Shown here: positions 1,485 through 32,298 of the stretch, one piece after another
Position numbering within the stretch: position 1 is the stretch's first letter
Layout: each line of letters opens with the position of its first letter
Assembly: GCA_025455365.1 (NCBI GenBank)
Contig: JALOMP010000002.1
Coordinates: 1 to 34,407 of the forward strand
DNA: 34,407 nucleotides
Direction of reading: 5' to 3'
DNA from: Chitinophagaceae bacterium
GTDB taxonomy: Bacteria; Bacteroidota; Bacteroidia; Chitinophagales; Chitinophagaceae
Program-made: the position numbers and the translations under genes
Notes under the pieces: generated by a model
Told to the model about the DNA's origin: nothing
The model's input: only the letters and a program-made list of their open reading frames with translations
Databases searched by the model: none

Positions 1485-1571
1485 GTTATCTGGATTTATT
1501 TGTAAATTTAGGCTTGATTTTTGTGGCAAAGAGCGATTTTTTTCGTTCCAAGAAGTACTGATTATATAACC

Positions 1572-3065
1572 ATGGCCCTTCACCAGAGTTTACAGCAAAA
1601 GTTACTGCAGAAACTGTCGCCACAGCAAATTCAGCTGATGAAATTGCTGCAGGTGCCCACGGCCAATCTTGAGGAGCGTATTAAGGAGGAGATGGAAGAG
1701 AACCCGGCGCTTGAACAGTCTGAAGAAGGGCATGAAGAAAATTACGAGGACGACCAGGGCGATGAATTTGAGGGGTCTGATGATGAGGATTATGAAATGG
1801 ATGGCAGTGAGGATGAATATGGGAATATCGATATTTCCGAATACGTGCATGACGAGGATGAAGTGGGGGATTATCGTCTGAGGGATGAACATTACCCTGA
1901 ATTGGAAGAAGGGAAGACCATGCCCCACCGGGTGGAAACCAGTTTTCACGAGTCTTTGCTGGAACAGCTGGGGCTGATGAACCTCAGTGAACACGAACTT
2001 CGGGTAGCCGAACAGGTGATTGGCAGTATTGACGACGATGGGTACCTGCGCAGGGAAACGACGGCCATTGTGGATGATCTTGCTTTCCGGCAGAATATTC
2101 AGACATCCGCCCAGGAGGTGGAATTATTGATTCGCAGGATACAGCTGTTTGATCCGCCCGGCATCGCCGCCCGCAACCTGCAGGAGTGCCTCCTGTTACA
2201 GTTGTATCGCAAGCAGGACACGGTCAGGGACGTTGCCGTGGACTGGGCCATTGAGATCCTGGAACACTATTTTGAGGAGTTTACCAAGAAGCATTACGAG
2301 AAGATACAGAAGGGCCTCAACCTGTCTGACGAGGATATCAGGGATGCGGTGGGACAGATCATCAAACTGAACCCCAAGCCCGGCGGCAACGTGGGCGAGA
2401 CAAACAAAGGGGAAACCTATGTAATCCCGGATTTCTTCATATACAACAACAACGGGAAGCTGGAGCTTTCCCTGAATTCAAAGAATGCGCCGGATTTACG
2501 GATCAGCGAAGGATATCGGGATATGCTGAGGGATTATGAGAAAGGCAGCAAGAAGGATAAGCGACAAAAGGAAGCGGTCCTGTTCATCAAGCAGAAAATT
2601 GATGCGGCCAAGTGGTTTATAGACGCGATCAAACAGCGCCAGAATACCCTGATGCTTACCATGCAGGCCATCCTGGACCACCAGCAAGAATTCTTTTTCA
2701 CGGGTGACGAGACCACCCTTAAGCCCATGATCCTGAAAGACATCGCTGAAGTGACCAACCTGGACATTTCCACGGTAAGCCGTGTGGCCAACAGCAAATT
2801 CGTGCAGACGGAATTCGGCACCTACCGGTTGAAGTTTTTCTTCAGTGAATCCCTGAGTACGGAAAGCGGTGAGGAGGTTTCAACCCGCGAGGTAAAGAAG
2901 ATCCTCAGCAACTTTGTGGAGGGGGAAAATAAAAAGAAGCCCCTGAGTGATGAGAAATTGACGGACATGCTTCAGGAAAAAGGATATAATATTGCACGGC
3001 GAACAGTGGCCAAATACAGGGAACAACTGAACATTCCCGTTGCCCGATTGCGGAAAGCGCTATAA
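1572..3065 (+). CDS. rpoN: RNA polymerase sigma-54 factor
   Basis: N-terminal Q-rich activator region (MALHQSLQQKLLQKLSPQQIQLMKLLQ), acidic region, core-binding domain, HTH (DISTVSRVANSKFVQTEFGTYRLKFFFSE) and RpoN box (ARRTVAKYREQLNIP). Confidence 0.97.
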   Translation: MALHQSLQQKLLQKLSPQQIQLMKLLQVPTANLEERIKEEMEENPALEQSEEGHEENYEDDQGDEFEGSDDEDYEMDGSEDEYGNIDISEYVHDEDEVGDYRLRDEHYPELEEGKTMPHRVETSFHESLLEQLGLMNLSEHELRVAEQVIGSIDDDGYLRRETTAIVDDLAFRQNIQTSAQEVELLIRRIQLFDPPGIAARNLQECLLLQLYRKQDTVRDVAVDWAIEILEHYFEEFTKKHYEKIQKGLNLSDEDIRDAVGQIIKLNPKPGGNVGETNKGETYVIPDFFIYNNNGKLELSLNSKNAPDLRISEGYRDMLRDYEKGSKKDKRQKEAVLFIKQKIDAAKWFIDAIKQRQNTLMLTMQAILDHQQEFFFTGDETTLKPMILKDIAEVTNLDISTVSRVANSKFVQTEFGTYRLKFFFSESLSTESGEEVSTREVKKILSNFVEGENKKKPLSDEKLTDMLQEKGYNIARRTVAKYREQLNIPVARLRKAL

Positions 3066-5156: not shown

Positions 5157-8100
5157 ATGAATTGTGAATCCATGTTTGCAATAGCAGGCAAACTGTGTAC
5201 CCCTAACCTTATGTTTACACTTTTACGACGTTGTATCATCTGGATGATACCCGCCATGCTGGCATGCGTCCAGTTACAGGCCCAGAACCCCATTGCCAAT
5301 GAAAATGCCCTGCCTGGCAACCCCCAGTGGGAATGGGATGTGTCCGCTTCGGGTGATCCAAGCATCCAGGGTTTTTCCACGGACATGAGTGTCAATAAGG
5401 GCAATACCGTCCGGTTCAAAGTCAGGATTACAGGGACCAACAAGAACTTCAGCATACGCATTTACAGGCTAGGATATTACCAGGGCAATGGCGCAAGGCT
5501 GATTGCCAACCTTGGTACGGTTACAGGAACCTCACAGCCAAGTCCAAACGTAGATGCCAGCATTGGGCTCATGGATTACGGAAACTGGTCCGTCACCGCA
5601 TCCTGGCAGGTTCCCTCCAACGCGGTCACCGGTATCTATATCGCCCTGTTGCAAAGGCAGGATAACGGCGGTTCCAGCCATATCTATTTCATCGTACGCG
5701 ATGACGGATCCAGCGCGCCCATATTATTTAAAACATCAGATGCCACCTGGCAGGCATATAACAGTTACGGGGGATACAGTTTTTATGGCGGCAGCACCGG
5801 TAACATATCCGGTAGGGCAGATAAACTGAGTTACAACCGGCCGTTTAATACGCGCAGTGTTAAACCCGAATGTTTCCTGTTCAACGCCGAGTATCCCATG
5901 TTGCGCTGGCTGGAAAGGAATGGGTACGATATGGCTTATGTCACGGATGTAGACCTGGAACGAACCACCACACCCATCACCACCGCAAACCGGCAGGTGT
6001 TGCTTTCCGTGGGTCATGACGAATACTGGTCGCAGAACATGCGCAACGTCTATGAGAATGCTCGCAACGCGGGTGTGCACCTGGCATTTTTCAGTGGTAA
6101 TGAAGTGTATTGGAAAACGCGTTGGGAGAATAATAACCGTACGCTGGTTTGTTACAAGGAAGGATACAATGGCCAGGGCGAGTACAACTGCGGAGGCAAT
6201 TGTGACCCAGTGGGAGGGGTATGGACGGGACGCTGGCGAAACGGGTGCGAGTTTGGGGAAGATGGCTGTCGCCCCGAGAATGCACTCACCGGCCAGCTCA
6301 GCTGGACGGAGTCTTCCCTTGCCATGCAGGTGCCATCTGATTACAAAAATCTACCCTTCTGGCGCAACACCAGTATTGCGAACCTCCAGCCGGGCCAGGT
6401 GGCTACGCTCACAGACCAGACCCTGGGCTACGAATGGAATTATGAACAGAGTGATTATGCCTGGGCGAACCCGCAGGGTAGGGTTACCATGTCCAGAACC
6501 ACTTTTAATGGCATGACCCATATGCTGTCCCTGTATACGCACAGCAGCGGTGCCATCGTTTTCGGGGCCGGTACGGTACAGTGGTCCTGGGGTCTGGATG
6601 ATGTGCATGACCGGGGAAACCCGGCTCCTTCGAGGGATATGCAGCAGGCCACCGCCAACCTGTTTATAGACATGGGGGTTCTGCCGGCCACACCACAGGA
6701 AGACCTGGTGGTACCTGCTCCCCCGAGCCCGCCTTCCGGTACTAATTATGCGATTTTCACCAACCAGCTGCCCACCAACCAGAACCAGCGTGACAATACC
6801 TTGGGCATCGTGGTAGGGACCCGATTCAGATCCAATACTGCCGGCTCTGTCACCGCCTTCCGTTTTTATAAAGGCGCCGGAAATACCGGCACGCATATTG
6901 GCCAGCTGTGGACCAATACCGGTACACTGCTCGGACAAGCCACTTTCACCAACGAAACGGCTTCCGGCTGGCAACAGGTGAACCTGGCAAACCCGATTTC
7001 CATCAGCGCCAATGTCGATTATATCGTGTCTTACCATTCCAGCCAGGGCTATTACAGCACCACCGGCAGGTTCTTCCTGAACAGCGTGGTTAACGGCCCG
7101 CTGACCGCTCCGGCGGATGCTACCGGCAGGCGTAATGGTTTGTATAAATATTCAGCAACGCCCATCTTCCCGGATGAGACGTATGAACAGGAAAACTATT
7201 TTGTGGATGTGGTGTTCTCTCCACCCGCGCCACAAGATGGAACGCCACCAACCGTAACGTCGATCGCTCCTGCTCAGGGTGCAACAGGGATATCTACCGG
7301 CACGTCCGTGACCGCAGACTTCAGTGAAGCACTGGATCCTTCAAGGGTCAATGGCACAAATGCCTTCTTAAGGGCGGGCGCTTCAACTATCGCTGCATCG
7401 GTATCATACAGTTCTGCAAGCAACCGGATAACCATCGCACCCAGTTCTTCATTGTCCGGCGGCGTCACGTACACCGTTACCCTGAAGGGAGGCTCAACCG
7501 GAATCCGTGATGTTGCCGGTAACGCGCTGGCCAACGACTATACCTGGAGCTTTACCACGGTTTCTGCCCCGGTGCAGTCGGGCACTTGCCCCTGCACGGT
7601 ATTCAATACTTCGCAGGCGGTACAACCATCCTCATCCATTGCCAAAAACGACGGTTCCCCGTTGAATATCGGGATGAAGTTCATCCCCAGTCAGAATGGA
7701 TTTGTCACGGCCCTCCGTTTCTATAAGTCCATCAACCACAGCGGTACCCATACGGGCCAGTTGTACAATGCGAACGGCACGCTGCTGGCCAGCGCCGTGT
7801 TCACCAATGAAACGGCATCGGGCTGGCAGCAGGTAAACCTGTCCACAGCGGTTGCGGTTACGGCCGGCACCACCTACATCGTGTCTTACCACAGTGCGGA
7901 GGGCAATTACAGCACGACGGTGGGATATTTTGACGCGTCCGTGGTGAGTGGCCCGCTGACAGCGCCATCTACGGGTTCCAGCGGTGGTAACGGCTTGTAT
8001 TTATACGGCGCCACACCGGCGATGCCAGTAAGTAGTTATAATGCCAGTAACTATTGGGTGGATGCCGTGTTCACGGAAAGCACGCAGGGAGACCAGACCG

Positions 8101-9290
8101 CACCAACGGTCACTTCCACATCGCCTGCTTCCGGCGCTACGGGTGTGTCACAGGGTGTTACCATTTCAGCGTTCTTCAGTGAATCCCTCAGTGCGTCAAC
8201 GGTTAATGGCACCAATGTCTTTATCAGGAATGGGGCCACAGCCGTACCGGCTACCGTGGGCTACACATCCGGCAGCCAGCAACTGACCCTTGCTCCTTCA
8301 TCTGCACTGTTGGCCGGCACCACCTATACCGTGACGCTTAAAGGAGGTGCTTCGGGAATAAAGGATGCTGCCGGTAATGCGCTGGCCGCCGATTATACCT
8401 GGAGCTTTACCACGGCTACGGTACCGGTGCAGCCAGGAATATGCCCCTGCACGGTATTCAATACTTCGCAGGCGGTACAACCAACCTCATCCGTTGCCAA
8501 AAACGATGGTTCCCCGCTGAACATCGGGATGAAGTTCATCCCCAGCCAGAATGGTTTTGTCACAGCCCTCCGTTTCTATAAGTCCATCAACCACAGCGGT
8601 ACCCATACGGGCCAGTTGTACAATGCGAACGGAACGCTGCTGGCCAGCACCGTGTTCACCAATGAAACGGCATCGGGCTGGCAGCAAGTAAACCTGTCCA
8701 CACCGGTTGCGGTTACGGCCGGCACCACCTACATCGTGTCTTACCACAGCGCGCAGGGCAATTACAGCACGACGGTGGGATATTTCGACGCGTCCGTGGT
8801 GAGCGGCTTGCTGACAGCGCCGTCCACCGGTTCCAGCGGAGGCAATGGGGTGTACCTCTACAGCGCTGCGCCGGCGATGCCAGTGAGTAGTTATAATTCC
8901 AGCAACTACTGGGTGGATGTGGTGTTTAATACCACGGTCGCGGGTGCTGCTTCAACGCAACTCAGTGGAACGGCCATGACGGACGAGGAAGCTCCGGCAT
9001 CAAGGCCCGGCGTGGTCAGGAACCGGAATGCAGATTTTAGTCTCGCGCAGAACATACCGAATCCAGCCAGCGCATTTACAACCATTCGGTACAGCATACC
9101 CGAAAGTGGCCGGGTAAGCATCAGCCTGCATGATATGCACGGCAGGCTGGTCAGGCAGATGGTGAATGCGCAGAAGCCGGCAGGCACATACACGGTGGAA
9201 CTGGATACGCGCACGCTCAGCAAGGGTGTCTACTATTATCAGATGGTAAGCGGAACCCACCATTCCGTAAGACGCCTGGTTATTGAATAG
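5157..9290 (+). CDS. Giant T9SS-exported protein: N,N-dimethylformamidase-beta-like domain, 3x DUF4082, 2x Big_5/SbsA Ig-like, T9SS type A sorting domain
   Basis: 1377 aa; signal peptide (MFTLLRRCIIWMIPAMLACVQLQAQ; start could be 5211). DMFase-like motifs 'GHDEYWS', 'FFSGNEVYWKTRW', 'HSSGAIVFGAGTVQWSWGL'. DUF4082-like 'TNETASGWQQVNL...YIVSYHS' x3; 'TYTVTLKGG..GIKDAAGNAL' x2. C-terminus 'NIPNPASAFTTIRYSIPESGRVSISLHDMHGRLV..GVYYYQMVSG'. Confidence 0.85.
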   Translation: MNCESMFAIAGKLCTPNLMFTLLRRCIIWMIPAMLACVQLQAQNPIANENALPGNPQWEWDVSASGDPSIQGFSTDMSVNKGNTVRFKVRITGTNKNFSIRIYRLGYYQGNGARLIANLGTVTGTSQPSPNVDASIGLMDYGNWSVTASWQVPSNAVTGIYIALLQRQDNGGSSHIYFIVRDDGSSAPILFKTSDATWQAYNSYGGYSFYGGSTGNISGRADKLSYNRPFNTRSVKPECFLFNAEYPMLRWLERNGYDMAYVTDVDLERTTTPITTANRQVLLSVGHDEYWSQNMRNVYENARNAGVHLAFFSGNEVYWKTRWENNNRTLVCYKEGYNGQGEYNCGGNCDPVGGVWTGRWRNGCEFGEDGCRPENALTGQLSWTESSLAMQVPSDYKNLPFWRNTSIANLQPGQVATLTDQTLGYEWNYEQSDYAWANPQGRVTMSRTTFNGMTHMLSLYTHSSGAIVFGAGTVQWSWGLDDVHDRGNPAPSRDMQQATANLFIDMGVLPATPQEDLVVPAPPSPPSGTNYAIFTNQLPTNQNQRDNTLGIVVGTRFRSNTAGSVTAFRFYKGAGNTGTHIGQLWTNTGTLLGQATFTNETASGWQQVNLANPISISANVDYIVSYHSSQGYYSTTGRFFLNSVVNGPLTAPADATGRRNGLYKYSATPIFPDETYEQENYFVDVVFSPPAPQDGTPPTVTSIAPAQGATGISTGTSVTADFSEALDPSRVNGTNAFLRAGASTIAASVSYSSASNRITIAPSSSLSGGVTYTVTLKGGSTGIRDVAGNALANDYTWSFTTVSAPVQSGTCPCTVFNTSQAVQPSSSIAKNDGSPLNIGMKFIPSQNGFVTALRFYKSINHSGTHTGQLYNANGTLLASAVFTNETASGWQQVNLSTAVAVTAGTTYIVSYHSAEGNYSTTVGYFDASVVSGPLTAPSTGSSGGNGLYLYGATPAMPVSSYNASNYWVDAVFTESTQGDQTAPTVTSTSPASGATGVSQGVTISAFFSESLSASTVNGTNVFIRNGATAVPATVGYTSGSQQLTLAPSSALLAGTTYTVTLKGGASGIKDAAGNALAADYTWSFTTATVPVQPGICPCTVFNTSQAVQPTSSVAKNDGSPLNIGMKFIPSQNGFVTALRFYKSINHSGTHTGQLYNANGTLLASTVFTNETASGWQQVNLSTPVAVTAGTTYIVSYHSAQGNYSTTVGYFDASVVSGLLTAPSTGSSGGNGVYLYSAAPAMPVSSYNSSNYWVDVVFNTTVAGAASTQLSGTAMTDEEAPASRPGVVRNRNADFSLAQNIPNPASAFTTIRYSIPESGRVSISLHDMHGRLVRQMVNAQKPAGTYTVELDTRTLSKGVYYYQMVSGTHHSVRRLVIE
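7220..8075 (+). repeat. Tandem intragenic module copy 1 (Big_5 + DUF4082), ~855 bp
   Basis: Matching landmarks offset by 855 bp (e.g. CCTGCACGGTATTCAATACTTCGCAGGCGGTACAACC at 7591 and 8446). Confidence 0.85.
8076..8930 (+). repeat. Tandem intragenic module copy 2 (Big_5 + DUF4082), ~855 bp
   Basis: Same as copy 1; the DUF4082 part is near identical at DNA level, the Big_5 part clearly diverged. Confidence 0.85.
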
Positions 9291-9324
9291 CGTCGTTGAA
9301 AGTGAATATTTCTTTCGTTAACAC

Positions 9325-9361
9325 CAGGGTCGGCAATTTTGCCGACCCTGTTTTTTTTTTT
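9325..9361 (+). terminator. Rho-independent terminator of the first giant gene
   Basis: CAGGGTCGGC-aatttt-GCCGACCCTG followed by T11, about 35 nt after the stop codon. Confidence 0.93.
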
Positions 9362-9621
9362 GAGGCCTGGTTCAAATCTGATTTTTTATCGCCCCCGCCA
9401 GGGCGAACTTAATAAACTGATATACAGTACGTTTTTTTGAGAAGATGCAATTGCTCAACCGGTGCTGGACCTTTTAAACGAACAGGAACTGGCTACATCT
9501 GTGAGAAATTTAATATCCCTGCTTGCATTATTGGGGATCGCAGATTATTTTTACGTCCTGTATAGACCACAAACGCTTATCTGCTCCGATCCTGGAGCCC
9601 TCTGATTTCCACTATTCCGTT

Positions 9622-9675
9622 GATAACCAGTTTTGCGCTTTTAATTAATTCGTTACCGTACTGAAATTGGTTATC
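9622..9675 (+). promoter_or_regulatory. Long inverted repeat abutting the ORF-track ATG of the second giant gene
   Basis: GATAACCA (9622-9629) and TGGTTATC (9668-9675) perfectly complementary; pairing extends inward to 14 bp allowing 3 G-U wobbles; ATG at 9677. Confidence 0.5.
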
Positions 9676-9676
9676 T

Positions 9677-12600
9677 ATGAGAACATTATGCGTACCCCTG
9701 ACTGGTTTTGCTATTGCGTGCTGGCGAAGTATCGTTGCTTACAGTACGATGATTCTCCTGTTTTTTTCCTCCCCTGCTGTTTACGGGCAAAATGACATTG
9801 TTACCGAGAACCTCAAGCCGGGCGTGAACGCGTCCGTCTGGGACGGGATCTTCAGCTCCGGGGATGGTTCCATCCAGGGTTTTGCCACCGACATGAGCGT
9901 GAACAAGGGACAGCGCGTACATTTCAAGATTAATGTAGCAGACGGAACGAACAAGCAGTTTACCATCCAGGTGTACCGCCTGGGTTATTATGGTGGCAAC
10001 GGCGCCACGCTGGTAGAAGACCTGGGTACCCATACGGGCGTGCAGCAACCGGACCCGCTGGTTGATAACGCAAATGGACTGGTTGATTGCGGTAACTGGT
10101 CTGAATCAGCGCATTGGGATATCCCGGCAAACGCCGTATCCGGCATTTACCTCGCCAAACTGACAAGGCTTTCAAATGGTGGATCGAGTCATATCGTGTT
10201 TATCGTACGTGACGATGCGAAGAATACAGACCTGCTTTTCAAGACATCCGATGCCACCTGGCAGGCATATAATAATTTCGGCCCGAGTTTATACGGTCCT
10301 ACTGGTCCCGGTAATCCACTCACCTTTGGCTACTCGAAGGCGAATAAGGTAAGTTATAACAGGCCTTTCTTTACAAGGGATGCCAGGCCCGCAAACTTCC
10401 TCTTTAACGCGGAATTTGCCATGCTTCAATGGCTGGAAAGAAATGGTTATGATGTAAAATACGTGACGGATGTTGATTTTGACCGGGACGCCACGCCCAT
10501 AACACCCGTTAACCACAAGGTAATCCTGTCTGTTGGACATGATGAGTACTGGTCTAAAAACCAGCGAATGAGATTTGAGGCCGCCCGTAACAGTGGCGTG
10601 CACCTTGCTTTTTTCAGTGGAAATGAAGTGTATTGGAAAACGCGTTGGGAGAACAGCATAGACGGCTCCGGGCAAACCCACAGGACACTGGTTTGCTATA
10701 AGGAAGGTTTGTCTGAGGATATGGGCGAAGTTACCTGCGGGTCCATGAATTGTGATCCGTTGCCGGGAACCTGGACAGGCCTGTGGCGTTTTGGCGGCGA
10801 AAAGGATGCGGGCATGCCTGAGAACATGCTGTCCGGGCAGATGAGCTGGATTGAAAGATCTATTCCGCTCCGGGTGCCAAGCCATTACAGGAACCTGCGT
10901 TTCTGGAAGAACACTGCCGTTAACACCCTCGCTGATGGCCAGACGGCTGTCCTGGGAACCCAGATACTGGGTTATGAGTTTGACTTCGAACAAGAGAAGT
11001 TCCGCGACCTATATCCGAAAGGACGAATCCTGATGTCGAAGACCACCTATGTAGGGGATGGTAACTGCTGTGGTTTCGATGAAATTGAAGACAAATTCGG
11101 TACGATGGAACTGCCCCTGGGTAAGAACTATACGCACCATCTTTCGCTGTACAGGCATAGTAGCGGGGCGCTGGTATTTGCAGCCGGAACCATCAACTGG
11201 GCATGGGGTCTTGAAGAAACCCATGATGTTACACAGGCCCCGGTGGTACCGGAAATTCAGCAGGCTACCGTAAACGTGCTGGCGGATATGGGCGCGCAAC
11301 CGGGATCATTGCAAAACGGCCTGGTGCCCGGCATCATGTCAACGGACTTTACAGCGCCCACCATCAACGTTATATCACCGGTTGAAGGAACTCAGGTAGG
11401 GCTCGGTAAAGTGATTACGATTACCGGAACTGCCACCGACGCGGACGGCGTAACGGCGGGCGTAGAGGTTTCCATTGATGGTGGAATTACCTGGAAAACG
11501 GCGCAGGTAACCAGCACCCTGAACAATACGGTTTCCTGGACATATACTTTTTCTCTTTCCGCGATCGGTAATTTCCCGATACTCATCAGGGGTTTCGATG
11601 ACTCCGGTAACCTTGGCGAAGCCGGGCCGGCCTTCCCCGGATCCATACTAACGTTGGTGGGTACCTGCCCTTGTTCCGTATTCTCTCCCTCTGATGCCGT
11701 TGAGTCGATACCAAGGGACGATGACCCAACACCGCTTACGGTAGGCATGAAATTCAGGACTTCCGTTGACGGGTTTATCCTGGGAGCGAGGTTTTACAAG
11801 GATCCCGAGAATACCGGGCTGCATGTGGCCAAACTGTATTCCTCCGGCGGAACCCTGCTTGCATCCGCCACCTATACCAATGAAACGGCTTCGGGCTGGC
11901 AGCAGATCAGTTTCAACGCACCGGTTCCGGTAACGGCAAACACTACTTATGTGGTTGCCTACTACAGTACCGAGGGGAAATACAGCCTCTCTACCCAAAA
12001 CTTTACAAACGGGATTACCAGGGGCCCGATCCGTGCACTGAGCAATGCTGAGTCCGGGGGTAACGGGGTCTATGCCTATGGAGATATTTTCCCGGCTGGC
12101 TCTTACATGGCGGGCAACTACCTGGTGGATGCCATCTTTAACACCACCACACAGTGTGCTTTCACGCCTGAATTAACAACCCTGAACCCTGTTTGTGCCG
12201 GAGAACCAATTAGCTTGCGGTTATCGGGCGTTTCGGGCACCGGTCCATATTCCCTGCTGCTGAATGGTGTGCCGGTTGACAACATAAACGCGAATGAGAC
12301 ATTCACGGCAGCGCACCTGGTAGCCAACCCAACCACCCTGATTAACGTGAGCATCTGGCCAAGCGGATCCGGCGGCACCGCGTCTTCGGTAACGGAATCC
12401 CGTGAAATAGGCCTGCGTTTCAGGTCAAACACGGCCGGCTATGTAAACGCAATAAGGTTCTTTAAATCAGCGGAATCCGGAACGGGAACTTTCTCCGTCA
12501 GGTTGTATGATATGGAGAATCCTGGCAGCCCGATTGGTTTTGGAAGCATCACTTTTAATAGTCCTGATCAGTCTGGCTGGCAGGTGGCAACGCTGAATAT

Positions 12601-13510
12601 GCCCGTACTCATTACGGCCAACAAGACCTATTTGGCTTCTTATGTAGCCCCCAACGGCCGCTATACGGAGTCTCCAGGCGCCCTCAGCGTGGCCTATACG
12701 AATGGTCCCCTGACAGCCATCGCCAATACCAGTCTTGAGCCCAATGGCTTGTATAAAACAGGCAGCGGAACCGAAGCGCCTTCCATGGAAGAATATCCCG
12801 GTGCGGCCATAAACTACTGGGTAGACGTGGTATTCACGGCGGTCAACCAGGTAAGGTTTACGCAGATCGTGGATAAGTGGGGCGTGACCTGCTTCAATAC
12901 CGCACCCAATTTAAGTACGCTGAACCTCCAACCGGTGAACTGCGCGTTCCTGCCCGTAACCCTGTCGGATTTCAGGATCAGTACACAGGCCGATGATGTT
13001 ACCCTGCAATGGACAACTGCCAGCGAAAACAATAACCGCGGTTTCGAGGTCCAGCGAAGCACCAATGGTAACCAGTGGACCGCGATCGGGTTCGTAAAGG
13101 GAGCTGTCAACAGCCAGGTACAGCGTACATACCAGTACCAGGACAAGGATCTGAAAGAAGGCAGGTATTTCTATCGCCTGAAACAGGTGGATCTGGACGC
13201 TAAGTTCACCCATTCAAAGATCCTCCAGGCGGTGATCAATACCGGTAAAGCAGGATTTGGCCTCGGGCAGAACTATCCGAACCCGACCCACGGCAACACG
13301 ACCATTACCTACACCATACCTCACCGGAGTCATGTACAGATCGCATTGTATGATATGCAGGGAAGACTTGTCAGGCAGATTGTCAATGAAAGCAGGGAGC
13401 CCGGGTACTATACCGCAGACCTGGACACGAAGGGTCTGGGCAAAGGGGTCTACCATTATAAAATGACAGCAGGCGAATTCCAGGAAGTGAAGCGATTGCT
13501 CGTGAACTAG
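9677..13510 (+). CDS. Giant T9SS-exported protein, paralog of 5157-9290: DMFase-beta-like domain, bacterial Ig-like domain, 2x DUF4082, T9SS type A sorting domain
   Basis: 1277 aa; 'GHDEYWSKNQRMRFEAARNSGVHLAFFSGNEVYWKTRW' and 'HSSGALVFAAGTINWAWGLEETHD' shared with the upstream paralog; 'CPCSVFSPSDAVES...TNETASGWQQISF' DUF4082-like; C-terminus 'NYPNPTHGNTTITYTIPHRSHVQIALYDMQGRLV...KGVYHYKMTAG'. Confidence 0.85.
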   Translation: MRTLCVPLTGFAIACWRSIVAYSTMILLFFSSPAVYGQNDIVTENLKPGVNASVWDGIFSSGDGSIQGFATDMSVNKGQRVHFKINVADGTNKQFTIQVYRLGYYGGNGATLVEDLGTHTGVQQPDPLVDNANGLVDCGNWSESAHWDIPANAVSGIYLAKLTRLSNGGSSHIVFIVRDDAKNTDLLFKTSDATWQAYNNFGPSLYGPTGPGNPLTFGYSKANKVSYNRPFFTRDARPANFLFNAEFAMLQWLERNGYDVKYVTDVDFDRDATPITPVNHKVILSVGHDEYWSKNQRMRFEAARNSGVHLAFFSGNEVYWKTRWENSIDGSGQTHRTLVCYKEGLSEDMGEVTCGSMNCDPLPGTWTGLWRFGGEKDAGMPENMLSGQMSWIERSIPLRVPSHYRNLRFWKNTAVNTLADGQTAVLGTQILGYEFDFEQEKFRDLYPKGRILMSKTTYVGDGNCCGFDEIEDKFGTMELPLGKNYTHHLSLYRHSSGALVFAAGTINWAWGLEETHDVTQAPVVPEIQQATVNVLADMGAQPGSLQNGLVPGIMSTDFTAPTINVISPVEGTQVGLGKVITITGTATDADGVTAGVEVSIDGGITWKTAQVTSTLNNTVSWTYTFSLSAIGNFPILIRGFDDSGNLGEAGPAFPGSILTLVGTCPCSVFSPSDAVESIPRDDDPTPLTVGMKFRTSVDGFILGARFYKDPENTGLHVAKLYSSGGTLLASATYTNETASGWQQISFNAPVPVTANTTYVVAYYSTEGKYSLSTQNFTNGITRGPIRALSNAESGGNGVYAYGDIFPAGSYMAGNYLVDAIFNTTTQCAFTPELTTLNPVCAGEPISLRLSGVSGTGPYSLLLNGVPVDNINANETFTAAHLVANPTTLINVSIWPSGSGGTASSVTESREIGLRFRSNTAGYVNAIRFFKSAESGTGTFSVRLYDMENPGSPIGFGSITFNSPDQSGWQVATLNMPVLITANKTYLASYVAPNGRYTESPGALSVAYTNGPLTAIANTSLEPNGLYKTGSGTEAPSMEEYPGAAINYWVDVVFTAVNQVRFTQIVDKWGVTCFNTAPNLSTLNLQPVNCAFLPVTLSDFRISTQADDVTLQWTTASENNNRGFEVQRSTNGNQWTAIGFVKGAVNSQVQRTYQYQDKDLKEGRYFYRLKQVDLDAKFTHSKILQAVINTGKAGFGLGQNYPNPTHGNTTITYTIPHRSHVQIALYDMQGRLVRQIVNESREPGYYTADLDTKGLGKGVYHYKMTAGEFQEVKRLLVN

Positions 13511-13580: not shown

Positions 13581-14714
13581 CTAAGAACGTTTATAATATT
13601 CCAGGATGGTGTCTGCGATAAAGTCAACCTGCTCTTCGGTCAATTCATAAAACAGCGGCAGCCGTAAAAGGCAGTCTGAATACCGGTCGGACTGGGGCAG
13701 TGCGCGCCCGTCGTGTTTGTCCCGGTAGAACGGGGAAGCATGCAGGGACAAATAGTGAAACACTGCGTAAATGCCTTTCTCCTTCAGCAGCGTAATGAGC
13801 CCGATTCTTTCCTCGAGTGTCTTGCACACCAGGTAAAACATGTGGGCATTGTTGGTGGCGAAATACGGTATGTAAGGAAGCTGTATCAGACCTTTTTCTT
13901 CGAGCGGCCTCAGCGCTTTGTAATACCTGTCCCACAGTGTCTTCCGGCGTCCCTGGATTTCTTCGAGGTTTTCCAGTTGTGCATAGAGGAATGCGGCAAT
14001 AATATCCGAGGGCAGAAATGAACTTCCCATGTCCACCCATCCGTACTTGTCCACTTCGCCGCGGAAAAAGGCAGAACGATTGGTTCCTTTCTCGCGAATG
14101 ATCTCCGCCCTCAGTACGAATCGATCGTCATTCACGGCCAGCATGCCGCCTTCACCAGCCATGATGTTTTTTGTTTCATGGAAGGAAAACGCTGCCATCG
14201 TTCCGATACTGCCCAGCGGACGTCCTTTGTAGTAGGAATCAATTGCCTGGGCCGCATCTTCGATGATAAAAAGATTGTGACGCTTTGCCAGGTCCAGCAG
14301 CGGATCCATGTCTACGGCTATCCCTGCATAGTGTACCGGGACGATCGCTTTTGTTTTGGGTGTTATAAGGCTTTCCACCTGGGTAACATCCATATTCGGG
14401 TTATAGTCCGTGCTGTCTGCGAAGACCAGTTTGGCGCCCCGAAGTACGAAAGCATTTGCGGTGGACACAAAAGTGTAGGAAGGCATGATGACCTCATCAC
14501 CCGGTTGAATATTGATCAGCAATGCGGCCATTTCAAGGGCGTCCGTGCAGGAAGTTGTGAGCAGCGTCTTTTTGAAGCCGAACTTTCCTTCGAAGAGGGC
14601 ATGGCATTTTTTGGTAAATACGCCGTCACCGGAGATCTTTCCAGATAGTACAGCCTGGTATATGTAATGTCCTTCTTTGCCTGTCAGGTAGGGTTTGTTG
14701 AATGGGATATTCAT
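13581..14714 (-). CDS. wecE: dTDP-4-amino-4,6-dideoxygalactose transaminase (WecE/RffA-like)
   Basis: MNIPFNKPYLTGKEGHYIYQAV..., 'TTSCTDALEMAALL', 'VIMPSYTFVSTANAFVLRGA', 'FSFHETKNIMAGEGGML' (PLP lysine motif). Confidence 0.9.
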   Translation of the reverse strand: MNIPFNKPYLTGKEGHYIYQAVLSGKISGDGVFTKKCHALFEGKFGFKKTLLTTSCTDALEMAALLINIQPGDEVIMPSYTFVSTANAFVLRGAKLVFADSTDYNPNMDVTQVESLITPKTKAIVPVHYAGIAVDMDPLLDLAKRHNLFIIEDAAQAIDSYYKGRPLGSIGTMAAFSFHETKNIMAGEGGMLAVNDDRFVLRAEIIREKGTNRSAFFRGEVDKYGWVDMGSSFLPSDIIAAFLYAQLENLEEIQGRRKTLWDRYYKALRPLEEKGLIQLPYIPYFATNNAHMFYLVCKTLEERIGLITLLKEKGIYAVFHYLSLHASPFYRDKHDGRALPQSDRYSDCLLRLPLFYELTEEQVDFIADTILEYYKRS

Positions 14715-14728
14715 TTTTGAATATTGGA

Positions 14729-15451
14729 TTATAACCAGAAATGATAGTAATATAATTTTTTATCGAGGTGGAATCCACTGCCGGTGTAGAGTTTGACGGC
14801 GGCTTCGTTGATACCCTGTGTCACAACCTGCACTTCCTGGTATCCTTTTTTTCGGAAATAGGCTTCTGCGGCCGCCATCAGTTTTTTTCCAATGCCCTGT
14901 CCGCGGGCGAGACCTGAAACAGCCACCAGTCCAATATCACCCCTGCCATTTTTTTCACCGAGCGTAACCATTCCCAGGATGCGGTCCTGGTCTTCATACA
15001 CCAGTATTTCCTGGGCGATCTCCTTGCGCACTGATTTTTCAATCCAGATCCGGTACAGTATCTGGTATTCGTTGTGCACAAAACGGGGATCCACCTTGAA
15101 CCGGGAATAAAGGCCGCTGTCTAAAGCGAGCTGAAGCAAATCTTCCGATACAACCGGCAGCGCGTACGAATGGATATGCGGGTCTGCCGCACTTTCAGAC
15201 GCAGCATCCAGTTTTTTGACAAAGGTTAGTTTTTCATCTGCCAGGATGCCGTCAAACGAATGTAATATGCCGGTGTCTGACACTGGCTTCTGCGCAGGAA
15301 AATAGACCAGGCAAAAGCCTTCCTTTTTCATCTCACGCAGTAAAGCGCATAAAGCCGCCTCGGGCAGATTGGAGACATTGATCGCGGCGGTGGGTATGCC
15401 AAAAGTCTGGCTGTCCCATTCCAGTTTTTTATAGAGTAGTTGGCCGATCAT
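14729..15451 (-). CDS. GNAT N-acetyltransferase, possible dTDP-4-amino-sugar acetyltransferase (WecD/RffC-like)
   Basis: N-terminal 'YKKLEWDSQTFGIPTAAINVSN', GNAT core 'DIGLVAVSGLARGQGIGKKLMAAAEAYFRKKGYQEVQVVTQGINEAAVKLYTGSGF'; sits between WecE-like and GT2 genes. Confidence 0.8.
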   Translation of the reverse strand: MIGQLLYKKLEWDSQTFGIPTAAINVSNLPEAALCALLREMKKEGFCLVYFPAQKPVSDTGILHSFDGILADEKLTFVKKLDAASESAADPHIHSYALPVVSEDLLQLALDSGLYSRFKVDPRFVHNEYQILYRIWIEKSVRKEIAQEILVYEDQDRILGMVTLGEKNGRGDIGLVAVSGLARGQGIGKKLMAAAEAYFRKKGYQEVQVVTQGINEAAVKLYTGSGFHLDKKLYYYHFWL

Positions 15452-16386
15452 TCAGCATTGATTTTTTCGCTAATAATATAAATGGGCCTGTTTTTGATAC
15501 CCTCAAAGGATTTGCCCACATACAGACCTACGATGCCAAGCAACATGATGAGAATACCGCTTAAGAGCCAGATCGATACAATCAGGCTCGCATAACCCAG
15601 CACTTCAATCTCTCCCCGGTAGGCGCGAATGGCTGTGATGATGGCGAATATGAATGACATCGTGGAAATCAGGAAGCCAAGTTTGACGGTTATTTTAATC
15701 GGCTTGTCGGATGATGCCAGGATGATGTCCGTGGCCAGCCGGAAAAGCCGCTTGAAATTATAATTCGATGACCCGATTTCCCTTGCCCCGTGTTCCACCG
15801 GTATGGTGGTTTTCCGAAAACCTACCCAGTTAACCATAGAAGGAAAATACCGGATGGGTTCCCGTAGCTGTTTCATGGCATCCACTGCCTTTCGGTTGTA
15901 AATGCCGAAATTTGCGATGCTGGCATCCTGCTTAACCCCTGTCAGGTAGCTCAGGACACGGTAGAATGAACGGGAAAGGAATTTTTTAATGAATGAATCC
16001 TTTCGCTCTGCACGTTGCGCCAGTACGATATCATAACCCTCACGCGCCCGCGCAATGAGGTTTTTTATTTCAGAAGGCTTATCCTGGAGATCACAGTCCA
16101 TCACCACGATCCACTCCCCACAAGCCGCGTCCAGCCCGGCCGTAATGGCATAGTGCTGGCCGAAATTTCTGCTGAGTTTCAAAGCTTTAACGCGCTTGTC
16201 CCCTTGGGCGATCTCTACCATACGCTCCCATGAACGGTCCGGACTGCCATCATCCACCAACACGATCTCAAAATCATGGGTGATAGGGCCTACTTCCTCA
16301 ATGATTTTTTCAACCAATTGATCTACAATGCCTTCGGCACGGTACACCGGAGAAACGATGGACAGTAAAGGTGATTTCAGGGTCAT
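15448..16386 (-). CDS. Glycosyltransferase family 2 (polyprenyl-phosphate-sugar synthase/ArnC-GtrB-like) with C-terminal TM helices
   Basis: 'LSIVSPVYRAEGIVDQLVEKI', 'VLVDDGSPDRSWERM', 'VMDCDLQDKPSEI', two C-terminal TM segments; 4-nt overlap with the downstream GNAT. Confidence 0.9.
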   Translation of the reverse strand: MTLKSPLLSIVSPVYRAEGIVDQLVEKIIEEVGPITHDFEIVLVDDGSPDRSWERMVEIAQGDKRVKALKLSRNFGQHYAITAGLDAACGEWIVVMDCDLQDKPSEIKNLIARAREGYDIVLAQRAERKDSFIKKFLSRSFYRVLSYLTGVKQDASIANFGIYNRKAVDAMKQLREPIRYFPSMVNWVGFRKTTIPVEHGAREIGSSNYNFKRLFRLATDIILASSDKPIKITVKLGFLISTMSFIFAIITAIRAYRGEIEVLGYASLIVSIWLLSGILIMLLGIVGLYVGKSFEGIKNRPIYIISEKINAE

Positions 16387-17711: not shown

Positions 17712-18188
17712 TTATTCTGCATGGCGGATATACGCCTGGAATGCTCTTTTAAACAATGGATCGCAAATCTCTGGCATCAGGGGTCCCGTCATGTCCGGTT
17801 TATGCCTGTTGACATAAAATTTCGGCAGGTTGGGCAGGAGGCAACTTGATCCTCCCTCGGTATCCTCGGAACCAAATACGATCCTTCCGATTCCGGACAG
17901 CAATAGCCTTCCGAAACACATACAGCAGGGTTCAAGGGTCGTGTAACAGGTCATCTCCCGAGACCTTTTCCAAAGGGATATGGGAACTTTGTCCAGCGCA
18001 TTCATTTCCGCATGCCCTTTCGGGTCGAAATACGGGATCAGCAGGCTGCTGGCCCCTTCGGCGATGATTTCGTTGTCAAGGGTTATCAGGGCGCCTACGG
18101 GCAGGTTACCCTGCTTTTCTGCCTCCAGGGCAAGTTCCACGGCGCGCGCCATGAATGCATGGTCCTTTGTATGGGATATTCGTACCAT
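17712..18188 (-). CDS. Nucleoside deaminase (tRNA-adenosine/guanine deaminase-like)
   Basis: Zn motifs 'GHAEMNAL' and 'TTLEPCCMCFGRLLLSGIGRIVFGSED'. Confidence 0.88.
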   Translation of the reverse strand: MVRISHTKDHAFMARAVELALEAEKQGNLPVGALITLDNEIIAEGASSLLIPYFDPKGHAEMNALDKVPISLWKRSREMTCYTTLEPCCMCFGRLLLSGIGRIVFGSEDTEGGSSCLLPNLPKFYVNRHKPDMTGPLMPEICDPLFKRAFQAYIRHAE

Positions 18189-18295
18189 CCTTTAAAACTA
18201 ATGAAAAGATGGTTACGGGCATGATGAGGATCAGTGTCCGCTTTCAGGATAAAATTCAAATTTGCTGCGAAATGCCATCGCACATAAACACAATT

Positions 18296-19768
18296 ATGCA
18301 TTCAATACTTTTTGCCATGAAGCGTATCGCCTGCTTTTTGCTCCTGACTGGGATGGTCTTCAGCGTCCGGGCCCAGGTAAAAACAACCCTTCCTGATCTT
18401 TCAGCCAAAAAAATGGAGGTATTTACCACTGCCTACAATACGGATCAACGGATCTCGAGAACCACCGCGACGGGTTTCAAATTGCTGCCTCAACCGGTGG
18501 AAGGGGAAATCAGTGTTTTCGTGGATCCATCACGCACCTACCAGACTTTTGTGGGCATCGGCGCCGCCCTGACCGATGCCAGTGCCGAAGTGTATGCGAA
18601 ACTGCCGGAAGCACAGCAAAGGGAATTCATGCAGGCCTATTACGACCGGGAGCAAGGCATTGGCTATTCCCTTGCCAGGACGAATATCCACAGCTGCGAT
18701 TTCAGCAGCGGAAGCTATACGTATGTACAGGAAGGGGACGGATCACTGTCCAGTTTTTCGGTTGACCATGACCGGCAGTACCGTATTCCCTTCATCAAGG
18801 CGGCTATCCGCGCGGCTGGCGGCAGGCTTCCGTTATATGCCAGTCCATGGAGCCCGCCAGCGTTCATGAAAACCAATGGCAGCATGCTGCAGGGCGGCAA
18901 ACTGAAACCGGAATTCGCGCAGGGCTGGGCCAACTATTACGTGAAATTCATACAGGCATACGAAAAAGAGGGAATCCCGGTCTGGGGTATCTCCCTGCAG
19001 AACGAACCCATGGCTACCCAACGCTGGGAGTCCTGCATTTATACCGCCGAAGAGGAGCGGGACTTTCTGAAAAATCACCTTGGGCCCACGATGCACAAGG
19101 CGGGGTTTGCCAATAAGAAAATCATCGTCTGGGACCATAACCGGGACCTGATGGTACACCGGGCCAATATTATTTTCAGCGACCCGGCAGCCCGGAAATA
19201 TGCATGGGGCATGGGATTTCACTGGTACGAAGACTGGAGCGGGGGCCAGCCCATGTTCCAGAATGTGGGCATCGTGCACCATACTTTCCCGGACATAAAC
19301 CTGATGTTCACGGAAGGTTGCGGCGAGCGATTTGACTTCAACAAATTACAGGAATGGTACCTCGGCGAACGGTATGGACGATCGATGATCAATGATTTCA
19401 ATAACGGCACGGTGGGATGGACGGACTGGAATATCCTGCTGGATGAAACGGGTGGTCCTAACCACGTACAGAATTTCTGTTTCGCCCCTGTGCATGCGGA
19501 TACCCGCACCGGTAAACTTATATACACCAACGCGTACTACTATATCGGCCATTTTTCAAAATTCATCCGCCCGGGCGCAAAACGAATCAGCAGTGCTGCT
19601 TCCCGGAGCCAGTTGATGACAACCGCCTTTGCGAATACGGACAAAAGCATCAGCGTGGTGGTGATGAATACCAGCGACAAGCCCGTGGATTATAATCTCT
19701 GCATCGGCCGATATGCGTCGGTGGTAAATATCCCGGCCCGGGCGATCCAGACCCTGGTGCTCCGCTGA
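18296..19768 (+). CDS. Glycoside hydrolase family 30 (glucosylceramidase-like), exported
   Basis: 'FVGIGAALTDASAEVY', 'YASPWSPPAFMKTNGSMLQGG', 'GISLQNEPMATQRWESC' and 'LMFTEGCGE'. Start at 18296 or 18317 (MKRIACFLLLTGMVFSVRAQ). Confidence 0.9.
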   Translation: MHSILFAMKRIACFLLLTGMVFSVRAQVKTTLPDLSAKKMEVFTTAYNTDQRISRTTATGFKLLPQPVEGEISVFVDPSRTYQTFVGIGAALTDASAEVYAKLPEAQQREFMQAYYDREQGIGYSLARTNIHSCDFSSGSYTYVQEGDGSLSSFSVDHDRQYRIPFIKAAIRAAGGRLPLYASPWSPPAFMKTNGSMLQGGKLKPEFAQGWANYYVKFIQAYEKEGIPVWGISLQNEPMATQRWESCIYTAEEERDFLKNHLGPTMHKAGFANKKIIVWDHNRDLMVHRANIIFSDPAARKYAWGMGFHWYEDWSGGQPMFQNVGIVHHTFPDINLMFTEGCGERFDFNKLQEWYLGERYGRSMINDFNNGTVGWTDWNILLDETGGPNHVQNFCFAPVHADTRTGKLIYTNAYYYIGHFSKFIRPGAKRISSAASRSQLMTTAFANTDKSISVVVMNTSDKPVDYNLCIGRYASVVNIPARAIQTLVLR

Positions 19769-22025: not shown

Positions 22026-22916
22026 ATGTATATGCGTAAATTAATTATGCCGGCGCTGCTGTTCATGTTCTGCATGAGCGCATCTGCCCAGAAAGTCATC
22101 ACCCTGTACAAAGGGAAAGCCCCCGGTTCGGAGTCCTGGAATTGGCCGGAAAAGGAATATTACCATGAGATGACCAAACAGCGGCTCGTGTACAATGTGG
22201 CAGACCCCACGCTGACCGTTTTCACACCACCTGCAGGCACTGCCAACGGTACGGCTGTTATCATTGCCCCTGGAGGCGGCTTCCATTTCCTGGCGATCGA
22301 CCGGGAAGGCACTGAAGTGGCGCAATGGTTGAACAAGAAGGGAATCACGGCATTCGTGCTGAAATACCGGCTGGTGAAATCCCTCACCACCGACCCTTTT
22401 ATGGAGATGATGCAAATGATCAATGCACCCGGGAAAGGGGATTCCCTGATGGCATCGCTGGTGCCGATGTCGATCAGTGATGGACAGGAAGCGATACGGT
22501 ATGTGCGTGCGCATGCCGCTGAATGGGGTATTGATCCCAGGCGGATCGGATTCATGGGTTTTTCCGCCGGGGGTACGGTTACCACGGGGGTAACCTTGAA
22601 TTACACGCCGGAATCTCGTCCTGATTTTTCTGCGCCTATTTACGCATACACGGGCGGAAAGCCTGTGGTGGTACCAAAGGATGCACCACCCATGTTCATC
22701 CTGGCTGCGTCCGACGACGAGCTCAAACTCGGGCCGCACAGTGTACAGTTGTATAACGACTGGATCAACGCCGGGAAACCCGTGGAACTGCACATGTATG
22801 CCAAAGGCGGTCATGGTTTCGGGATGGGAAAACAAAACCTGCCTTCCGATACCTGGATTGAGCGCTTCGTGGAATGGATGGATCAGCAGGGATTCACGAA
22901 GACAGGGAAGAAATAA
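22026..22916 (+). CDS. Exported alpha/beta hydrolase (acetyl-xylan-esterase/AxeA1-like)
   Basis: Signal peptide MRKLIMPALLFMFCMSASAQ; oxyanion 'APGGGFHFLAIDREG'; nucleophile 'GFSAGG'; C-terminal 'KGGHGFGM'. Confidence 0.85.
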   Translation: MYMRKLIMPALLFMFCMSASAQKVITLYKGKAPGSESWNWPEKEYYHEMTKQRLVYNVADPTLTVFTPPAGTANGTAVIIAPGGGFHFLAIDREGTEVAQWLNKKGITAFVLKYRLVKSLTTDPFMEMMQMINAPGKGDSLMASLVPMSISDGQEAIRYVRAHAAEWGIDPRRIGFMGFSAGGTVTTGVTLNYTPESRPDFSAPIYAYTGGKPVVVPKDAPPMFILAASDDELKLGPHSVQLYNDWINAGKPVELHMYAKGGHGFGMGKQNLPSDTWIERFVEWMDQQGFTKTGKK

Positions 22917-22944
22917 TTCCATTCTATCTACTTTAATTTTACGC

Positions 22945-25900
22945 ATGAACCCGAACCGTTGGCATCTTTTTGTTTTAATCGGACTCATATATGCTGTTGC
23001 CTGTAAGGAAAAGGTACAGGATCAGGATAGCCGAACCATCCAAATGGATACGGCAAAAACCGCTGCTATGGCCAGGGTCATTGAGTCCGGGGTGACCCCC
23101 AAACTCGCGGAAGGCCTCACCCTTTCATTATGGGGCATCGACTCCCTGGTGGCGGACCCGGTGTCCATCGATATTGACGACCAGGGCAGGATCTACTATA
23201 CCCGGACCAATCGCCAGAAGAATTCGGAGTTCGATATCCGCGGCCACCAGGACTGGGAAATCAGGTCTGTCAGTTTATCAACCATGGAAGATAAAAGGGC
23301 ATTCCTGCATAAAGAGCTGGCGCCTGAACGGAGTGCACAGAACCCATGGCTGACCGACCTGAACGGGGATTCGTCACGTGATTGGCGGGACATGACGGTC
23401 CAGAAAGAACAGGTGTACCGGCTGGAAGACATCAATGGCGATGGGGTGGCAGATAAATCGCAATTGGTTGTGGAGGATTTCAATGATGAAGTGACCGATG
23501 CGGCGGGCGGGGTATTAAAGCAGGGCGATGATTTATTTGTTGGCATCGGTCCTGATCTCTGGCGTATCAAGGAAAATAAGCAGGGCATTGCGGAATCCAA
23601 AACATCCATCTCCCATGGTTATGGTATTCACATCGGTTTCGGCGGCCATGGCATGTCCGGTATCGAAGTGGGCCCGGAGGGAAAAATCTACTGGCAGATC
23701 GGCGATATCGGATTCAACGGCAAAGGGCCCGATGGGAAGCAATGGAACCACTCCAACAGCGGTGTAATCTGTCGCGCCAATCCCGATGGAAGTGATTTTG
23801 AGGTCTTCGCATATGGGAACCGGAACACCCATGAATTTGTATTCGACGAGTACGGCAACCTCATCAGTGAGGATAACGATGGTGATCACCCCGGCGAAAG
23901 CGAACGCATCGTATACGTGGTCAATGGGGCGGACATCGGCTGGAGAATCAACTGGCAGTTTGGAAAATACAATGATCCCGATAACAATACGTACAAGGTA
24001 TGGATGGATGAAAAGATGTATGTCCCCCGCTGGGAAGGACAACCGGCCTATATCCTGCCCACGATCAGGAATTTCGTGAACGGTCCCACCGGGATGCTCT
24101 ACAACCCCGGTACGGCGCTGGGCCCGGCCTACCGAAATACTTTCTTCGTGGTGGAATTCGTGGGAAGCCCGGCGGGATCTGGTATCCATACGTTTAAACT
24201 GAAACCCAGGGGCGCGTCTTTTGAATTTGCCGATTCAGGAAAAATCCTGGGGAATGTGTTGCCCACGGGCATCGACTGGGGCCCGGATGGCGCCATGTAC
24301 CTGGCCGACTGGATCGAGGGATGGGGAACCAAGGACTATGGTCGCATCTGGAAACTGGATGTGAGCAATGCGGATATGCGTGAACGTAAGGAGACCGAGA
24401 AGCATATCCGGGCGGACTTTACACAATACAGGGATGAACAGTTGAGCGCGCTCCTCCGGCATGCGGATATGCGTGTCCGCCAGAAGGCGCAGTTTGAACT
24501 GGCCGGCCGTGGCCATAAGGGACGCGACATATTCAAGGCAACCCTGGCGGACAAGTCACACCAGCTGGCGCGCGTACATGCCATCTGGGGCATCAGCCAG
24601 TTTGCGCGAAAGGATCTGAAAGATGCGTCATTGCTGGTACCCTACCTGAAAGATGGTGATCCCGAAATACGTGCGCAGGCAGCCAAATGGATCGGTGATG
24701 TTCGATACAGGGACGCGGGACCGCAGTTGATTCCCCTGTTGAAGGATTCGTACAGCAGGGCGAGATTCTTCGCCGCCGAAGCGCTCGGCAGGATCGAACA
24801 TGGCCCGGCTGTTCAGCCACTGATCGATATGCTGGCCGCCAACAATGATGAAGACAATTACCTGCGTCATGCCGGCAGCCTGGCCCTGGCGCGCATTGGG
24901 AAGGCGGCGCCATTGATCGCCCTTTCATCGAATCCTTCCCGGGCCGTGCGCATTGCAGCGGTGGTGGCATTGAGAAGAATGCAGGAACCCGGCATCCGCG
25001 TTTTCCTGAAAGATGCGGATGAGTTTGTGGTAACGGAGACCGCCCGCGCGATCAACGACGATCTTTCCATCCCCGATGCCTTACCCGATCTCGCGCGCGC
25101 ACTGGCTGATCATCGTTTCCGCAATGAAGCATTTGTCCGCAGGGCCATCAACGCCAACCTGCGGGTTGGCAAGGAAGAGAATATAAAGGCCCTGACCGAC
25201 TATATCAACTATGAAGGCGCTCCCGTTGCCATGCGGCAGGAAGCGATTGATGCCCTCGGTACCTGGGCGAAGCCTTCTGTGCTGGACCGCGTCGATGGCC
25301 GCTTCCGCGGGGAGATCACCCGTGACCCTGTGCCCGCGCAGCAGCTGTCATCAGCCTTGCTAGTCAGGATGATGACGCATAAAGAGGCCACGCTGCGGGT
25401 ACATGCCGCGCGGGCGATCGGAAAGCTGCACATCGGCGCGGCGATCGACGTGTTGATGGCCGGCCTGAAAAAGGACGCTTCCCCGTCGGTACGTTCGGAG
25501 GCCCTGAAATCTTTGTCGATATTGCCCGGAAGCCATATGGACCAGGCACTGGGCATTGCTATCGCGGACAAGGACAAGACAGTGCGCGTGACGGGGCTCG
25601 ACCTGTTGCGCAGCGCCAGCCTGTCCAAAGAACGCATGGTGGCTTTGCTGGACGATGTGATCCGCCATCGAACGCCCGAGGAGAAGCAGGCGGCGATCAG
25701 CACTTTGGGCACGCTTCCGCTGGCCCATACGGAGGCGGTCCTCAGCAGGCTGGTGGATGAATTTGCGGCGGGCAAGCTTGCCAGGGAAGTACAGTTTGAG
25801 TTGGCCGATGCGATTGATTCGAGCGGATCAGCAGCCTTGCGTAGCCGGTATGTCGGCCTGAGTCAACAGTCATCGCCCGATTCCCTGAAAGCCGCTTATG

Positions 25901-28994: not shown

Positions 28995-29014
28995 ACAATC
29001 GTTTTATAGTGTGC

Positions 29015-31135: not shown

Positions 31136-31198
31136 TTCAGTTTAATTGATGTTTTCGATAAAGGCAACCGGCCATATGCCGGATCAGCCTGTCATGTT

Positions 31199-32287: not shown

Positions 32288-32298
32288 TTTTTACGTTT

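Follow-up and report, generated by a model that had tools for sequence, protein, structure and literature searches.

Tandem genes for exported proteins with a dimethylformamidase-type active site and DUF4082 modules, candidate enzymes of surface glycan remodelling

The N,N-dimethylformamidase (DMFase) of Paracoccus (large subunit, PDB 6lvb/c/d/e and 7w8j) holds Fe(III) via Y399, Y440 and E521, a 2-Tyr-1-carboxylate centre called unique when found; the mutants Y440A, E521A and H519A have no activity, and N547 appears in the drawing of the active site (PMC7686228). As the substrate is an industrial solvent that was introduced only in 1893 (PMC7686228), the question arises of the natural parent function. 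A second solved enzyme, N-acetyl-(R)-beta-phenylalanine acylase (PDB 8huy, 8i59, 8i5a), is the only polypeptide that the search listed for these entries. Proteins related to both are encoded by two adjacent open reading frames, ORF1 and ORF2, in contig JALOMP010000002.1 of a Chitinophagaceae bacterium, of which the 34,407 nucleotides analysed here are called the window. They are tentatively regarded, with confidence falling somewhat short of even, as exported, surface-attached iron amidohydrolases that would de-N-acylate or remodel N-acyl amino sugars of a surface glycan.

ORF1 (5157-9290, 1377 residues) and ORF2 (9677-13510, 1277 residues) are both intact and lie on the forward strand, as do all the features within them, and are the two adjacent secreted-type paralogues seen in the first-pass annotation. 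Their N-termini, judged by eye rather than by a predictor, are hydrophobic and end in ...QLQAQ and ...VYGQ, respectively. The catalytic-type domain which follows fits the Pfam family DMFA2_C (PF20254, cut-off 27 bits) at residues 100-482 of ORF1 (5454-6602; E 1.8e-91, 307.8 bits) and 96-515 of ORF2 (9962-11221; E 1.6e-99, 334.3 bits). Pfam further identifies three DUF4082 copies (6771-7205, 7623-8060 and 8478-8915) and two Big_5 repeats in ORF1, and one Big_7 and two DUF4082 copies (11693-12127 and the divergent 12377-12823) in ORF2. The DUF4082 profile (PF13313, cut-off 28.4) scores 472.1 bits on ORF1 and 245 bits on ORF2. Both proteins terminate with a type IX secretion system (T9SS) type A sorting domain (Por_Secre_tail), located at residues 1301-1376 of ORF1 (9057-9284; PF18962 47.1 bits, TIGR04183 42.9) and 1200-1276 of ORF2 (13274-13504; 45.9 and 46.9 bits), above the curated cut-offs of 27 and 23. 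The succession of immunoglobulin-like (Ig)/DUF4082 modules and sorting domain had thus been correctly described. The tail is that of T9SS type A cargo, but the catalytic-type domain matches none of the cargo enzyme families named in NCBIfam.

The DMFA2_C domains of ORF1 and ORF2 are about 60% identical and branch in the tree as each other's sisters (support 98); the pair is thus a tandem duplication. A strong terminator-like hairpin of 11 pairs followed by T10 is found between the two genes (9325-9350, forward strand), which are therefore probably separate transcription units. Within ORF1, DUF4082 copies 2 and 3 share a 139-nucleotide stretch (7775-7913 and 8630-8768) at 96% nucleotide identity, the result of recent internal duplication or of gene conversion. 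The largest ORF inside the 386-bp gap between ORF1 and ORF2 is 47 residues long, and no candidate for the DMFase small subunit, which the annotation had likewise not seen nearby, was found in the gap or among the annotated genes of the window, to which the search was confined rather than extended genome-wide.

Residues 38-537 of ORF2 were modelled with AlphaFold2 from an alignment of 44 sequences, built without rows from annotated plasmid records; the predicted local distance difference test (pLDDT) score of the model is 85.6 and its predicted template modelling (TM) score 0.90. The ligand-bearing blocks score 83-92. In Foldseek the best PDB match of the model is the acylase (E 5.6e-20, TM score by query 0.67), followed by wild-type DMFase (E 1.2e-16, TM score by query 0.57). 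These two are the only strong matches, the next being at 4e-6, and an Ig plus ThuA-like fold is predicted for the domain. Similarly, the only real matches in a profile search of PDB sequences were the acylase (8i5a/8huy, 1e-38) and DMFase (6lvb/c/d/e, 7.7e-34). The resemblance to the DMFase large subunit proposed in the annotation is therefore supported by both sequence and model, and by the fold match the N-terminal domain is not a purely adhesive beta-sandwich, the case which would have refuted an enzymatic role there.

The acylase is the closest solved relative by fold and sequence, and has the Tyr-Tyr-His-x-Glu-Asn set in common with the window proteins. Identity is about 14% only, and the acylase differs also because a domain of more than 250 residues is inserted in its Ig domain, and both DUF4082 and sorting domain are missing. 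With DMFase the common features are the Ig plus ThuA-like core and all five active-site residues. DMFase has in addition a pentraxin domain II (residues 74-337), inserted in its Ig domain, and requires a small subunit, neither of which is found in the window proteins; in the profile alignment DMFase residues from about 43 to 337, pentraxin domain included, have no counterpart in these. Unlike DMFase, the window proteins carry DUF4082 modules and a T9SS signal. In the tree, DMFase and the acylase pair with each other (100) and are separate from the clade of DUF4082 proteins (100), although branches are long. Because the pentraxin domain and the small subunit are absent, and the tree branch is a different one, ORF1 and ORF2 are, by sequence, not DMFase proper.

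By alignment, the iron ligands Y399 and Y440 correspond to Y201 (5757-5759) and Y210 (5784-5786) in ORF1, and to Y198 (10268-10270) and Y206 (10292-10294) in ORF2. The catalytic H519 and the ligand E521 correspond to H287-x-E289 (6015-6023) and H288-x-E290 (10538-10546), and N547 to N315 (6099-6101) and N316 (10622-10624). The motifs are anchored in the PDB alignment by the mutant entries 6lve (E521A), in which the E of SHPEY is altered, and 6lvd (Y440A), in which the Y of STY is altered. The Tyr of GNEVYW was rejected as counterpart of Y440, because this column varies among Y, F, W and C, and because by the same two entries Y440 falls at S-x-Y, and E521 within H-x-E-Y. The Tyr/Tyr/Glu set sought by the annotation is hence present in both proteins at the level of the alignment. 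The five residues are kept in 109 of 109 domains, ORF1 and ORF2 included, a count biased in that 80 loci were picked out with the patterns VGHDEYW or DxTWQAYN, and these contain three of the five. The positions of Y440 and N547 fall outside these patterns, and the five residues are also kept in a pattern-independent set made by 11 relatives found in the phylum survey by hidden Markov model and the two solved enzymes.

If the likeness to DMFase extends to function, the N-terminal Ig plus ThuA-like domain would bind one ferric iron by Y201, Y210 and E289 in ORF1, and by Y198, Y206 and E290 in ORF2. The iron would polarise an amide carbonyl and activate water, catalysis being assisted by His287/288 and Asn315/316. 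The C-terminal signal would route the protein through the T9SS, and the DUF4082/Ig modules may be spacers, and probably glycan- or surface-binding domains.

Any uniqueness of the association of DMFA2_C and DUF4082 has to be dismissed. At least 587 relatives were confirmed by an alignment-based scan of species genomes; ORF1 used as single-sequence query of genome contigs retrieved no relatives, and an alignment query was needed. Among the best 80 of these at least 587 are members of Bacteroidota, Acidobacteriota, Actinomycetota, Pseudomonadota, Cyanobacteriota, Planctomycetota, Chloroflexota, Gemmatimonadota, Myxococcota and Thermodesulfobacteriota. Nearly all the full-length members feature one to five DUF4082 copies. 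Relatives of the domain are also found on 163 plasmid records, mostly rhizobial, all at less than 60% identity. In the tree the window pair falls within a clade made up of proteins of Bacteroidota (from Pontibacter, Cyclobacterium and Dyadobacter) and one Planctomycetota sequence. Few genomes in the group of the host have the domain: it is found in 10 of 396 genomes of the phylum, and no match to it was detected with ORF1 as query in 24 other genomes of the genus. Domain and architecture are already known to databases, where the proteins are denominated 'DUF4082 domain-containing protein' or 'N,N-dimethylformamidase beta subunit family domain-containing protein'; no functional report on the family emerged from the titles and abstracts of the literature. 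What is new is that the iron site is fully conserved in this secreted clade, and that the clade is linked to genes of amino sugars and of a metallochaperone.

The same DMFA2_C-Ig-DUF4082 architecture is found in Rhizobium, Bradyrhizobium and Actinomycetota (e.g. RL_RS26640 and RL_RS26650 on plasmid pRL9), with domains 45-50% identical to those of the window, and in rhizobia genes are also in tandem. The alphaproteobacterial relatives differ because they are linked to type I secretion genes and to a COG0523 GTPase, and have cadherin-like repeats and no T9SS tail. In four rhizobial loci (L036, L098, L102, L109) the two genes come from two old, separate subclades, each gene being followed by its own CobW gene; these sets are older than the window duplication, which is more recent. 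In a cyanobacterium (L052, 4886-9445) and in Microtetraspora (L090, 7128-9434) the gene adjoins a DUF4082 protein featuring, respectively, a WD40 propeller and an ice-binding-like domain at the N-terminus.

Neighbouring genes were analysed by clustering the flanking ORFs of 91 loci (the window, 10 plasmid loci and 80 genome loci). DegT aminotransferases account for 53 ORFs in 31 of the 91 loci, whereas about 1.1 would be expected in the 1.30 Mb of flanks at the genome-wide density of 0.88 per Mb, given by 94 strong matches over the 106.9 Mb of 20 of the genomes. NAD-dependent epimerase/dehydratases, Gfo/Idh dehydrogenases and hexapeptide acyltransferases are also recurrent. The best NCBIfam matches of these partners, mostly below equivalog cut-offs, are PseC/LegC-type transaminases, LegB/GalE-type dehydratase/epimerases, UDP-GlcNAc 3-dehydrogenase-like proteins and NeuD-type acetyltransferases, the NeuD model being above cut-off in two loci (L048, L116). 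These are the types of enzyme that make N-acyl amino-sugar nucleotides. Gfo/Idh, LegB/GalE-like, NeuD-type and PseC-like genes are found beside the DMFA2_C-DUF4082 gene (hereafter DMF gene) in Bacteroidota, Acidobacteriota, Actinomycetota, and Alpha-, Beta- and Deltaproteobacteria.

In the window, three genes of this sort are found on the reverse strand. A DegT family gene, encoding a WecE-type dTDP-4-amino-4,6-dideoxygalactose transaminase (13581-14714; NF008687 569.7 bits, cut-off 375; TIGR02379 524.7 bits, cut-off 434.85), is convergent to ORF2, with its end 77 bp away. It is followed by a WecD-like GNAT sugar N-acyltransferase (14729-15451; PF00583 above cut-off; the best NCBIfam match, PRK10975, E 6e-28, is below cut-off), and by a family 2 glycosyltransferase (15448-16386), homologues of which also adjoin the DMF gene in L047, a Bacteroidetes metagenome-assembled genome (MAG), and in Cyclobacterium (L048). 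The convergent layout is the same in L047, with a distance of 73 bp. The order in Cyclobacterium is Gfo, acyltransferase, DegT, acyltransferase, family 2 glycosyltransferase, epimerase, DegT and, after 155 bp, the DMF gene.

The sorting domain and the conserved amino-sugar context indirectly support a surface amide-cleaving or glycan-acting role, as the annotation had surmised. Since the iron of DMFase hydrolyses formamides, the acylase is named for N-acetyl removal and genes of N-acyl amino sugars adjoin, de-N-acylation of a glycan is the simplest reading. The likeliest substrate would be an acetyl or formyl amide carried by the amino sugars of a polysaccharide or glycoprotein at the surface, the biosynthesis genes of which adjoin, and the enzyme would de-N-acylate or remodel the glycan made by its neighbours. 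An N-formyl sugar was rejected as general substrate, because Formyl_trans_N is near the locus in only one of 20 genomes. That one gene, at about 112983-113360 of contig C14 in the L047 genome (G439), encodes a formyltransferase domain some 7 kb from the DMF gene, near DegT genes; it hints at an N-formyl sugar in the relative closest in context to the window.

An active iron amidohydrolase might instead serve nutrient scavenging, on environmental small amides, peptides or N-acyl amino acids, the sugar genes being unrelated. The kinship to an N-acyl amino acid acylase in both sequence and fold fits this reading, as does the retention of all catalytic residues. It is nonetheless considered quite unlikely, because the amino-sugar context recurs across phyla and is largely missing around PF20254 proteins without DUF4082, and a scavenging enzyme would not usually have so long and repeat-rich a surface architecture. 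DegT genes flank one of 11 such DUF4082-less loci, and CobW genes none; this control is small, and loci that are related cannot be taken as independent. It is very improbable that the Fe-ThuA-type domain catalyses a sugar reaction other than amide hydrolysis, for instance one on the 3-keto or amino-keto sugars that linked Gfo/Idh dehydrogenases would supply. Domain III of DMFase is indeed ThuA-like (PMC7686228), and UDP-GlcNAc 3-dehydrogenase-like Gfo/Idh genes recur in the context; but these are accompanied by DegT transaminases, so that synthesis of 3-amino sugars already explains them, the His/Glu/Tyr/Asn set is exactly that of amidases, and nucleotide sugars are intracellular whereas the enzyme is extracellular.

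DUF4082 was modelled on ORF1 copy 2 as a confident beta-sandwich (pLDDT 94.3). Its PDB matches, all weak, include PHR domains, phage fibres and CBM35 modules, and DUF4082 may plausibly have a binding role. According to the main rival explanation, unlikely in our opinion, the proteins are mainly surface adhesins or matrix components, in which DMFA2_C has a minor or structural metal-binding role, and the sugar genes provide a glycan by which the protein is decorated or anchored, or which it binds. In Bacteroidota this glycan could be the anchor sugar of T9SS cargo. The presence of up to five DUF4082 and of Ig/cadherin-like modules, the weak similarity of the DUF4082 model to CBM35 and PHR folds, and the biosynthetic rather than catabolic nature of the adjoining genes are all in keeping with an adhesin. 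Catalysis is favoured, in contrast, by the invariance of the five residues in 109 domains from about ten phyla, and by the mean column identity of 61% of the DMFA2_C domain within the DUF4082 group. The rival is further weakened by the occurrence of the linkage also in phyla such as Actinomycetota and Acidobacteriota, in which T9SS is not expected.

A gene for a CobW/COG0523 GTPase adjoins the DMF gene in 21 of 34 alphaproteobacterial loci and in none of the 57 others. It is always on the same strand, mostly less than 100 bp away, and in R. johnstonii pRL9 and several relatives two DMF genes have each a CobW gene of their own. At a background of about 0.75 CobW genes per Mb in genomes of this kind, about one would be expected over all flanks together. 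The linkage provides indirect evidence of metal dependence, independent and lineage-restricted. That the whole group is a widespread, so far undescribed family of secreted 2-Tyr-1-Glu iron glycan de-N-acylases of DMFase type, remodelling the N-formyl or N-acetyl amino sugars in surface polysaccharides of bacteria and found beside amino-sugar genes and, in Alphaproteobacteria, also beside a dedicated COG0523 metallochaperone, is a more doubtful proposition than the function suggested for ORF1 and ORF2.

Several points weigh against glycan de-N-acylation. The DMFase large subunit is inactive without the small subunit (PMC7686228), which is absent here. DegT linkage covers a third of the loci, not all, and the sugar genes may be there to glycosylate or anchor the protein, or to build a capsule that it merely binds. 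CobW linkage is restricted to Alphaproteobacteria, where the DMF partners resemble type I secretion substrates. A cytosolic chaperone loading metal into a protein exported unfolded is a difficulty, raised by the neighbouring type I secretion genes.

If glycan de-N-acylation is correct, metal centre and fold would be unrelated to those of the classical zinc polysaccharide deacetylases, and a new class of surface-glycan-modifying enzymes may be added. Hundreds of secreted-type proteins from about ten phyla, with a full active site and often beside N-acyl amino-sugar genes and, in rhizobia, also a metallochaperone gene, suggest a large natural reservoir, by which the question of the natural parent function becomes directly testable.

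The contig belongs with its genome, because rpoN (1521-3065) is 77% identical to that of a same-genus genome, and contamination of the MAG was rejected on this basis. At least three more DUF4082/Big_5-like proteins lacking DMFA2_C, some with sorting tails, are encoded elsewhere in the genome (contigs C186, C225 and C161). The remainder of the window includes, on the forward strand, a GH30 family glycoside hydrolase of 537 residues (18155-19768) and a protein of 1216 residues (22681-26331) that combines DUF7133 and HEAT repeats with a cytochrome c domain. On the reverse strand, genes for an FGGY kinase, an isomerase-like TIM barrel, an aldolase/short-chain dehydrogenase fusion, a RhaT symporter and a BD-FAE-type esterase (26401-33303) are probably a rhamnose catabolism operon.

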